A DNA stretch of 64,000 nt from Mesostigma viride (Eukaryota > Streptophyta > Mesostigmatophyceae > Mesostigmatales > Mesostigmataceae): assembly GCA_009746045.1 (NCBI GenBank), contig RPFO01000079.1:4602238-4666237 (forward strand), written 5' to 3'. The translations under genes and the position numbers were made by a program. How positions within the stretch are numbered: position 1 is the first letter of the stretch; each line of letters starts with the position of its first letter. Shown piece by piece: positions 1-32,193 of the stretch. The notes beneath the pieces were generated by a model. That model ran no database searches. It saw only the letters and a program-made list of their open reading frames with translations, and was not told the origin of the DNA.

Positions 1-3000
1 GAATGGCAGGAGGAGTTCCTCGGCCAGCTGACAGCACGAGAGTTTGTCGACACGATCACCGACGACTTGCTCGGCTCACGCGTGTTCGTGTTCACGCCGC
101 AGGGGGAGGTGCGTGTTTTATCTATCTTCTTTGCCTGCCTTCTGTTGCAGTCTCACCGCAGGAGGACGTGAACTCGTGCCTTTTTTTCACGTCGTCAGGT
201 GGAGGTGCATGTGTGTGTTTGTGTGTTGGGGCGAAACGAGCTTGTCAATAGGCCCATCCATTCATCGATTATTCACTTACCATGCCTACTCAATGCTTAT
301 GAGTAGGCATCTAAGTTAGTTCCCTGAAGCCTAACCTTAGATCCCCTGTCCACATCTCCCCTTCCCTGCCCCCTCTCCCCGACCCTTTCTCTTCTGCTCT
401 CTCTCCCCTCTCCCCTCTCCCCTCTCCCCTGCCCCGTGCCCCCTGCCCCCTCACCCTCACCCTTCTTCTGCTCCCTCCCCATGTCCCCTCTCCCCTGCCC
501 CCTCTTCCTGCCCCTGTCTCTTCTGCTCCCTCCCCCGTCTCCCCTCCTCCCTGTCCCCTCACCCCTGGGCATGCAGGTGGTCAACCTCCCTCGCGGCGCG
601 ACCGTGGTGGACTACGCCTACCACATCCACACCGACGTGGGCAATGCTATGGTGGCAGCCAAGGTGGGTGGATGGTGGTGGTCAATAATAGTGTATAGTG
701 GTTGATGGTTGATGATGGTGGTTGATGGAGGCGGTTCATGATGGTGGCTGATGATGAGGGTGATGTTTTTGGTTGTTGATGGTTGTTGATGTGTGTTTGT
801 GATGACCACCAAGCTGGGTGCCGTTCAACCACAAATGGTGCATGCCCTCTAACCAGGAATCCTGTGGGTGGATGAAGAGTAATGCTCGCGGTGCCACGTT
901 CACACTCGCATGGGCAATGCACAAAGGGAGACAGTCGTTGCTTGTGAGGTATTCTGCCATCCATCCTGGACCTGTGTCTCACCCAGAACCGCTGTCCTTA
1001 TGGCCCTGGTGCCGTTCTTATGGCCTTGGTATGCCTGAGAGCCCTCTCGTGCTTTGCTTCTTGCCCTGCCTGTGCGCGCTGGTGGCGTGTGACAGATCAA
1101 TGGACGCGTCGTCTCGCCCAGCCACACGCTGTGCAACGCGGAAGTGGTGGAGGTGGTCACCTATGATCGAGGGGTAGGTGCCAGCCTATGATGGAGGGGT
1201 AGGTAGCAGCCCTGAGGGCCACGGATGCCAGTATGCACCCCGTGGCATGACACTTAATGCCACGGGATCGCATCTTGGCTGGTGTCCGGAGGTACTCATG
1301 TCTTGTGTTCTGTCGTTGTCATTTCACGTGTTGGCCGTCATCTTGGCCGTCGTCCACCCATTGCCTGCACGTGCACAAGATAACCAGAGCCGGCAAAACA
1401 GTACCCACACATGTTTCCGTCCCGTTCCGATTTTTTCTTTTCTTTTTCCTTTTTCGCTGTGTTGCCATCGCCCATCATGCCGTTAATGAGTCAATCACGT
1501 AGACTCTGCCCCGTCGGTATCAATAAAGGAACCTTGGATTCCGACACCCACCGAGGGGGAAGGGCGTCCTCGTTCAGCTGGCACTAGCTTCTCTCAATGG
1601 AGAACCAGAGCACGTGGACAACCTAGTACTCATGGTTTCTTTTCATTTTTTATCCCCTCCCCTCCCCTCCTCTCCTCTCTCCTCCCCTCTTCTCCCCTCC
1701 CCTCCCCTTTCTTACTTCCCCTCTCCTTTCCTTTCCCTTGCGTTACTGCCCTGTCACCATCGCACCTCCTCCCATGCCATGCAGGAGAACCAGAGCATGT
1801 CGACGAAGCAGTACGAGCTGCACCGGTCCTGGCTGCGGCATGCACGCACGCGCAGCGCGCGATATAAGCTGACCAAGGTGAGCGGGCGGGGAATTGGGGG
1901 GACGAGGGATAAGGAGAGGGGGCCGGGGATGGCTTTTGTTGTACCCCTGATGTCGTATCGTACCCCCTTCATGTTCATATTCGCCCCCCTCCTGCTTGTT
2001 CCCACCCAGGTCATGTTCATGCACATCCCCCTCCTGTATGTATTGTATCCCCTCCCATTCCTCTCGCGGCGCAAGTCCTACCCAAGACCCGCCCCTGTTG
2101 TTCTCCCCCCTTGCTCACATTCGTGCTGCATCCGTTCCCATTATGCCCATTGCTTGCGTTATTATAGCAACTGCTGGTGTTTGCTATGCCCTTGCGCTTG
2201 CGCCCGCTCCACACCAGCGCCATCCCGTTGGTCGCACCCACACTGAAACCCCCCTTACATTTTCCTTACCATGGTTTTTTGCATGCTCCTGTGGCACCCG
2301 CTCCTGTGTTCCCCTGGTGCATCCGTGGACCCTCCAACACTCTCATGTCTGCATCGCCTCCGCCCCCATCGCCCCCCCCACCACTCCGCTCGTGTTTCTC
2401 GTCGCCTCCGCCAGTTCCTCAAGGAGTGCGCGCTCGAGTGCCGCCAAGCGCTCACCGAGGAGGCCCTAGAGTCCTTTGCCTCGCGCGGCTTCAGCGAGGC
2501 CGACGCGTACCTTCCCGAGGAGATAGGGGGGGCCGACGGGGGCCTCGAGCTGCTGCGCGAGGGGTTGCCGGACGACGGCGGCACTCCCGGCGAGGTTAGG
2601 GACGCGGCCGGGGGCGCCCAGGTGCTCGGGGACGCGGATGCCAGGGCCATGGGCGCAAGCATGGCGGGCACGGGAACCGTGGACACGGCGGGCGAGCGCG
2701 TGGGTGATAAGGCCATTGATGGGGACAGCTCGGCCGTCCCTGGGAGCACCAAGCTCCCAGCAGTAAGCGCGGGGGAAGGGTCCCCGAGCGCTCCGTCAAA
2801 GCGCGGGCTCAACGGGACCCCCGTGGCGCCCAACAACGGGAGCGGCAAGGGCCGTCCCGTGGGCAGCAACGGCGCGCGCCTGTCGCCCGGCATCGAGAAG
2901 CTGTACGCCAACGGGGAGCCGCTGCGCATCCTGAGCGCGCCCGAGGACATGTCGCTGCAGAGCGTCGCGTTCCAAGGGTGGCTGGCCAAGACGCTCAAGG

Positions 3001-30800: not shown

Positions 30801-32193
30801 GAAAAGGCTTCATGATGATCGGTGAGTACTAATGCCGACGCCTCAGGGGAGGAGGCTATGAACTTGTTGACCTAGAGTTCGATGAAGTACTGTTTTGCTT
30901 ACTAAATTTTTATTTGCGTTAGTTATAGTAGGGAATGGTGAGGGGATGGGGCTTATATTAGTAAGCTAGGGATGGGGATTCAGCTTCTTTAATCGTCGGA
31001 TTCAGATTCGTTCCCGCATTAGGGACAGTGACGTGATTCGATGATGCTAGCGTGTCCTTTAGCAGCCGAATGGGACGCTGGTCGCTTCAGACGTTAAGTG
31101 TGGGCACTTGCCAGATGGTGGCATGGCCCCGTGCGTGGCGCTGCTTATGCCCCTCCCCATCGTCTGGACGAGATCTGTTTGTATCCACAACCTATCACTC
31201 CCCTTGGTCATGCCTAGCACTAACGTGCGGGGTGCTGCCCTCCCGCTGCCCCCTTCCCCCAGGTACAATATGGGCATGACCAGGTGCTCCTGTACCCCCC
31301 CTTTGTTATATGCCTCGCTTCTATTTGTACATTGTCCCAACCCCTGTGCCCATCGCGCCTGTTATGGCATCCACATGACCCCGTGCACCTGCCTACCTCA
31401 TATCGCCCCCCTCCCCTTCCAAACCCCAGGTACGGCATCGGCATGTCCTGCGCATGACCCAGTGCAGTTAACCCACCTGCCTATTCGGTGTTCTGTATTC
31501 TCCTCCCCCTCACCCCACCTGGTTCCAGGTACGACATCGACATGACCAAGTGCATCTACTGCGGCTACTGCCAGGAGGCCTGCCCCGTCGACGCCATCGT
31601 GGAGGGGCCAAACTTTGAGTTTGCGACTGAGACGCACGAGGTGAGGGCGACGCTAGCCGCTACGTCTTATGCTATCCTACTATCATACTATCTGCCTATG
31701 CGCTATATATCATATGCTATCCTACTATTATACTATCTGCCTATGCGCTATATATCATATGCTTTCCTACTATCCTACTATCTGCCTATGCGCTATATAT
31801 CATATGCTATCCTACTATCTGCCTATGCGCTATATATGTAGCGCTATGAATGCATACATAGTTTAGTGTGTGAGATTGCAGCCACCCCTGTGATGGCAAT
31901 AACTGTCACATGGGCTGTTCCCTGTGCCCTGCCATTCAGTTTCTTACGCGGGCTGCCTCCGTACCTGTTGTTTGTGTCCCTGTCCCACGGTGCTGTGCCG
32001 CACTCCCATGGGGCTGTGCCCCGCTTCGGTTGCTCCCTTCCCATGTTGTGCTGGTTGCTGGTGGCTCCTTTTTGCGGTGGTTTGTGCCGGCTGGCAGGAG
32101 CTCCTCTACGACAAGGAGAAGCTGCTGGAGAACGGCGACCGATGGGAGCCCGAGATTGCCGCAAACCTGCGCGCCAACGCGCTGTACCGGTAG
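27804..32193 (+). CDS. NDUFS8: Mitochondrial complex I subunit NDUFS8 (TYKY, 23 kDa), 206 aa, 7 exons
   Basis: Exons 27804-27894, 28024-28071, 28274-28365, 29201-29314, 30609-30676, 31529-31640, 32098-32193 (TAG); all junctions GT-AG with matching phases. NDUFS8 carries iron-sulfur clusters N6a and N6b and passes electrons toward ubiquinone in the inner mitochondrial membrane. The N-terminus ([20 protein letters not shown]) is a basic, Ser/Arg-rich presequence. The conserved body includes [39 protein letters not shown], and two ferredoxin motifs: [16 protein letters not shown] and [20 protein letters not shown]. These hold all eight cluster cysteines. The C-terminus [17 protein letters not shown] is typical. 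Length fits the family (about 210-220). The second ferredoxin exon has three upstream echoes in the intron. Exons 1-2 (presequence) are the least constrained. Confidence 0.93.
28980..29005 (+). repeat. C run in NDUFS8 intron 3
   Basis: About 20 consecutive C interrupted by one A block, upstream of the CACCCCCCAG acceptor at 29200. Confidence 0.8.
29385..29545 (+). repeat. GCATGC/ATGCACGCTA microsatellite in NDUFS8 intron 4
   Basis: Units like CATGCACGCTAGGCA repeat about eight times with variation. The run is rich in GCATGC palindromes. Confidence 0.75.
30461..30535 (+). repeat. About 32-bp tandem duplication
   Basis: GGCCTGACATGCCTCTTGGC occurs at about 30469 and again at about 30501, upstream of the exon at 30609. 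Confidence 0.8.
31259..31553 (+). repeat. Three echoes of an NDUFS8 exon start upstream of the real one
   Basis: The acceptor and exon start at 31525-31553 (CCAG|GTACGACATCGACATG...) recur at 31259-31287 (24 of 29 identical), 31361-31387 (looser), and 31426-31445 plus 31452-31465 (near-identical with an 11-bp insertion). Two of the three keep the CCAGGTAC acceptor. Spacing is roughly 65-100 bp. Confidence 0.8.
31668..31838 (+). repeat. 45-bp minisatellite, nearly 4 copies
   Basis: Unit contains TATGCTATCCTACTATC and GCCTATGCGCTATATATCA; in the last NDUFS8 intron. Confidence 0.9.

Follow-up and report, generated by a model that had tools for sequence, protein, structure and literature searches.

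Copies of exon edges inside adjacent introns of Mesostigma viride and their relation to local duplication

In the green algae Chlamydomonas reinhardtii and Volvox carteri, tandem repeats are reported to be densest in introns and commoner near intron-exon junctions (PMC3887541). In potato, a tandem genomic duplication over an intron-exon boundary of RdRp is reported to have produced a new intron (PMC4974935). Fill-in at breaks by CST/Pol alpha-primase is reported to yield small tandem duplications in human and mouse cell experiments (PMC8355091), and introners are described as giving rise to introns, a green alga being among the cases (PMC9860276; Micromonas, PMC3879977). This paper addresses a related feature in the alga Mesostigma viride, in a stretch of 64,000 nucleotides of contig RPFO01000079.1 (C2022:4602238-4666237, the window). 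In three of its genes, namely an RSH1 fragment, NDUFS8 and a two-domain methyltransferase, bases around exon edges recur inside the adjacent introns, and we refer to these copies as echoes. None of the titles and abstract openings among the literature matches listed presents exon edges recurring in adjacent introns as a feature of a genome. In the genes examined here, splice junctions are no richer in echoes than the interior of introns. The echoes are very probably the exon-ward rim of a frequent direct local duplication across introns, for which the junctions are not special places.

The echoes resemble the tandem repeats reported to be concentrated in the introns of Chlamydomonas and Volvox (PMC3887541). 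Repeats were counted there and exon-edge copies here, and by our measure, which differs from that of the paper, no rise towards intron ends is seen, the peak lying 100-120 bases inside. Like the potato RdRp case as reported (PMC4974935), the duplicated segment lies across a pre-existing boundary and carries splice signals with it; unlike it, no new intron is present and the copy resembles intronic debris. Short direct tandem duplication is common to the echoes and the reported break-repair products (PMC8355091), and the mechanism may possibly be shared. Unlike introners as described (PMC9860276, PMC3879977), the 40 introns studied here have no common sequence.

Splice edges compared with intron and exon interiors

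The gene models were rebuilt from the window sequence, with 8 exons in the RSH1 fragment, 7 in NDUFS8 and 10 in the minus-strand methyltransferase. The initial annotation had set its seven echoes against about 22 junctions; 22 is correct as the number of introns, and the splice edges number 44. A second, independent set was drawn from the adjoining 220 kb, bringing the total region to 284 kb on one contig. Its genes were predicted by a small, simple hidden Markov model for which the window genes served as training set, and parts of 4 of the 26 predictions scoring above 25 were kept (18 introns, 36 edges). The other predictions (repeat-coded, antisense-overlapping or low-scoring) were discarded ahead of any echo count. 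Three of the four flank models have Pfam support: the 5' part of RSH1 (HD_4, RelA_SpoT), a Na/Ca exchanger and a TMEM260-like protein. The fourth, a protein that Pfam does not match, gave no edge hits. Both sets together hold 6 genes (RSH1 as two pieces), 40 introns and 80 splice edges.

The comparison relies on an own-first test, in which the intron belonging to an edge must yield a better copy than all the other introns. The test point was also shifted into the intron or into the exon, and intergenic pseudo-introns and exon interiors served as controls. Over both sets, 21 of 80 edges passed (2.3 expected), as did 132 of 480 points in intron interiors (13.8 expected), so that the initial proposal of junctions as special sites of duplication falls away (Fisher p=0.89). 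Exon interiors stayed at chance level (17/444, with 12.9 expected; edge versus exon interior, Fisher p=2e-9). The interior anchors are mutually dependent, with at most 6 per intron side, and the Fisher p-values are therefore approximate. Intergenic pseudo-introns gave 78/480 (13.8 expected). An earlier pseudo-intron comparison had given 63/220 for introns, 17 and 21 of 220 for intergenic sequence and 31/150 for a coding set that includes repetitive proteins (for example a leucine-rich repeat gene); true exon interiors replaced this coding set.

The distance profile has its peak inside the intron, with 30/80 at 100 bases and 29/80 at 120 bases from the edge. On the exon side the signal is down to chance about 30 bases in, and only 3/80 remain at 40 bases. 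The window set alone, under mild masking, has the same shape: 11/44 at the edge, 14-17/44 at 100-120 intron bases and 2/44 at 40 exon bases. The copies at edges are direct, inverted copies being found at 1/80 edges (1/44 in the window set), and on this count an inverted-repeat origin of the edge echoes was rejected.

Duplication across existing junctions, as the initial annotation had described it, is thus present in the window genes and recurs in the flank set, where 12 of 36 edges passed the own-first test (1.1 expected). The window edges, ranked against the pool of all 40 introns, gave 9/44 (1.2 expected), among them 3 of the 7 edges first named: RSH1 1173, methyltransferase exon 4 and NDUFS8. 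The unmasked window set gave 13/44 (2 expected) and included 6 of the 7, all but RSH1 3066. As masking was tightened, the count of window edges went to 11, 9 and 7 of 44, and the intron counts dropped alongside. Echoes were also commoner than in dinucleotide-shuffled introns, the comparison on which the initial annotation had staked its claim: with an edge-spanning statistic, 11 of 44 window edges reached p<=0.01. Block shuffles with the same ungapped statistic gave 10/44 at this level, against 0.4 expected. In a self-alignment of the gene regions, a low-complexity filter applied ahead of the count reduced the rows from 405 to 22 in RSH1, from 344 to 115 in the methyltransferase and from 50 to 40 in NDUFS8.

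Tandem arrays follow a similar distribution. Arrays with a period of at least 10 take up 20.5% of the intron sequence and 2.0% of the exon sequence in these genes, against 8.2% of a class of intergenic and other sequence that contains unmodelled genes. Within the window, two intronic regions of this kind may be named, the second as an example of the background to which the edge echoes belong:

20301..20433, minus strand: minisatellite array in methyltransferase intron 7, starting about 12 bases into the intron
22239..22785, no strand assigned: three minisatellites in methyltransferase intron 4, with 27-, 20- and 12-bp units

The individual echoes

All seven echoes of the initial annotation exist, and each has p<=0.02 against 100 dinucleotide-shuffled introns when the copy need not span the edge. 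Their positions in the window are as follows:

78..116, plus strand: RSH1 donor edge 108, copied at 172-212; 15/17 bases ungapped at +96, 31/39 gapped, GT kept
1146..1218, plus strand: RSH1 donor edge 1173, second copy 1171-1218; 25-bp tandem duplication, 32/41 at +25
1599..1629, plus strand: copy of the exon start 1784-1814 at RSH1 acceptor edge 1785; 25/31 at -185, AG lost
3164..3189, plus strand: copy of 3047-3072 at RSH1 donor edge 3066; 21/26 at +117, GT lost
23063..23098, minus strand: copy of the end of methyltransferase exon 4 (23175-23210); 33/36, 112 bp downstream, GTA kept
21082..21149, minus strand: copy of the donor region of methyltransferase exon 6 (21218-21280), at +131, within a degenerate intronic array
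31242..31557, plus strand: NDUFS8 acceptor edge 31529 and its three degenerate copies (31259, 31358, 31426)

The frequent retention of GT or AG that had been claimed holds for five of the seven edges, where at least one copy keeps the dinucleotide, and fails at 1785 and 3066. The echo at RSH1 108 is the weakest, with a banded gapped score of 36 against 32 for the best of 25 shuffles; under masking its top copy is a different one, at +59. At RSH1 1173 both copies carry the donor GTAGGT, and Tandem Repeats Finder (TRF) reports an array at 1160-1211. The RSH1 1785 echo matches at a single intron base (30 exon + 1 intron); its banded gapped score of 38 is under the best of 25 shuffles (41), and in the spanning test a further copy, at -414, gave it p=0.017. 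RSH1 3066 gave p=0.54 in that test.

The echo of methyltransferase exon 4 is the strongest of the seven and nearly all exonic (33 exon + 3 intron bases). By eye, the three differences between this exon end and its echo are all at third codon positions and synonymous, which may be chance. At exon 6, 9/9 exon and 45/54 intron bases are identical, and the copy reads GTAAGT where the edge reads GTACGT. The NDUFS8 edge has three copies rather than one, at -99, -167 and -266, with AG kept in two. They belong to a tandem duplication of about 167 bp (31242-31390 versus 31407-31557), each unit of which holds two copies about 100 bp apart.

Two echoes stand outside this list:

19440..19530, minus strand: copy of the donor region of methyltransferase exon 8 (19630-19720), at +190; 23 exon + 68 intron bases
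30758..30801, plus strand: copy of the donor region of NDUFS8 exon 5 (30672-30715); 32/44 at +86

Exon 8 has a shorter copy as well, at 19598-19619 (+95). The NDUFS8 exon 5 copy gave p=0.11 in a mostly exonic probe, which it fails because only 5 exon bases are copied. Both edges are significant in the spanning test, together with methyltransferase exons 3 and 7 and RSH1 1877; some of these unlisted hits are of low complexity.

A few features of the region may be recorded here. The methyltransferase gene (16425-26715, minus strand) has a long proline-rich stretch and, by eye, a possible N-terminal membrane anchor. An RSH1 intron holds about 145 CT copies at 3938-4227, ending about 77 bases ahead of the next exon. 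Intergenic positions 38320-38462, 37421-37542, 42636-42664 and 44711-44748 carry a 41-bp array, palindromic CGTATAATACG repeats and 4-bp repeats. In the left flank, kilobase microsatellites at C2022:4457997-4459532 and C2022:4525772-4526913 translate as extended open frames of (FVRS)n and (MDGW)n, and these misled the gene finder. In the left flank (L002-L023) and the window, 12,632 of the 284,000 bases are N.

Proposed origin and rival explanations

We propose that introns gain direct local duplications, both tandem duplications and minisatellites, mostly at offsets of 12-200 bp, and that some of these would cover a splice site and carry 4 to about 60 exon bases along. Transcripts spliced at the exon-proximal copy would be normal, and a duplication overlapping the splice site would thus survive. 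The exon-proximal site probably still works in this way; the other copy would then be intronic and decay. A duplication lying fully within coding sequence would alter the protein, and such copies are probably removed by selection. Echoes would be the more easily detected because the exon copy remains constrained. The molecular origin may be slippage, or else repair of breaks by fill-in of the Pol alpha-primase kind. The copies sit in introns and add sequence to them, as the initial annotation had proposed. Gapped alignment runs continuously from exon into intron at methyltransferase exon 6 (9+54 bases), exon 8 (23+68), NDUFS8 (29+122) and RSH1 1173. This continuity is expected, since tandem duplication requires it.

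Several observations weigh against this reading. Just 2 of 80 edges lie inside a TRF array, and most echoes would therefore have to be old or two-copy. The copies at methyltransferase exon 4 (33+3) and RSH1 1785 (30+1) are spaced 112 and 185 bp from their edges with no matching spacer. A simple tandem duplication would have copied the spacer, so these two cases need a spaced copy or a later replacement. Harmful duplication of splice sites might have been expected to bring the edge rate under the intron rate, which is not seen, and a dip 20 bases inside the intron (13/80, versus 21/80 at the edge) hints at an enrichment of edges, which is not significant (p=0.18). The raised intergenic rate means that duplication extends beyond introns, being less common between genes than within introns. 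Lastly, inverted copies do occur in flank introns, at 6/36 of the points 100 bases inside, with 0/44 at that distance in the window set.

A stronger role for donors might be read into a 46-bp array of 12.3 copies in RSH1 (L003:1025-1593; C2022:4593262-4593830), the first unit of which is an RSH1 donor of the flank set. The array starts within the exon, 4 bases from its end; 9 of the 13 unit starts retain GT, and the acceptor-like TTTCAGG occurs in all 12 full units. The array also supports the local duplication proposed above. Splice donors of this lineage might beyond that be preferred seeds of tandem duplication, introns might lengthen from the 5' splice site outward and leave runs of copied donors, and copy number might tune splicing or mRNA decay; we regard this as unlikely.

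Copying might also be specific to junctions: breaks at splice sites, for example, or repair that involves R-loops or an RNA template, would duplicate edges together with their splice sites, and the duplicates would serve as decoy or alternative sites. The rate is slightly higher at 0 to +4 than at the point 20 bases inside (21 versus 13 of 80), which would fit this. So would the excess of donors (15/40) over acceptors (6/40; p=0.04 uncorrected, the acceptor tracts being of low complexity and partly masked), and so would the echo of methyltransferase exon 6, as its GTAAGT is nearer to the donor consensus than the GTACGT at the edge. However, the edge rate equals that of intron interiors. The usefulness of the copies, which the initial annotation had suggested, finds no place in the predictions either: all 13 copies examined, at nine window edges, are unproductive, 11 adding an in-frame stop and 2 shifting the frame. 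Splicing at them would do harm, and a role as useful alternative exons was rejected. GT or AG is kept in 9 of these 13 and lost in 4, about the expectation for two bases at roughly 80% identity. Junction-specific copying is accordingly judged quite improbable.

Birth of the introns themselves, from introners or by tandem duplication of AGGT, could have left direct repeats behind. The echoes hold AG and GT, and comparable cases have been reported (PMC4974935, PMC9860276), but the echoes sit within the introns rather than at the opposite edge, and we consider this account very improbable. Among the 40 introns, no pair has sequence in common at E<=1e-4, and the introner origin was rejected. Two introns (RSH1 5' intron 1 and exchanger intron 5) match elsewhere in the 284 kb, a count from which two TMEM260-like introns were left out. 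Gain by AGGT duplication was rejected likewise, the mean similarity of donor and acceptor edges being 2.70 within introns and 2.83 across introns, with 0/40 scoring at least 10.

Chance, shared splice consensus, low complexity or wrong gene models might be thought to account for the echoes. Some hits are indeed purine- or pyrimidine-rich (methyltransferase intron 3, RSH1 577), the count drops with harder masking, and only three of the seven named edges pass own-first in the masked 40-intron pool. Chance is nevertheless contradicted by the shuffles, the cross-intron ranking, the inverted control and the independent set. The gene models are opposed to the last of these doubts: NDUFS8 aligns free of gaps with the complex I TYKY chain 7a23_D, which we take to be from a plant structure, over residues 41-206 and across 5 of its 6 junctions. 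In Pfam, the RSH1 window fragment has a TGS domain over the cut-off and an ACT domain slightly under it, and the minus-strand window protein has two stretches matching Methyltransf_11. An explanation from this group is hardly credible. An assembly error duplicating short segments, conceivable in a contig-based assembly, is the least credible of all and was rejected: between aligned copies about 8-34% of the bases are different, and several pairs have insertions or deletions, which assembly stutter does not produce.

Meaning for introns of repeat-rich algae

With duplication across introns as the preferred reading, an apparent oddity of junctions becomes a testable background rate for the introns sampled. 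At a sampled point, whether in an intron interior or at a splice edge, a local copy can be detected in about one case in four; coding interiors have none above chance. Claims of intron gain, of duplicated exon edges or of decoy sites in algal genomes rich in repeats can be measured against this rate. If the equality of edge and intron rates were to hold genome-wide, duplication of splice sites would be near harmless in this organism, which would mean that splicing reliably picks the exon-proximal copy.

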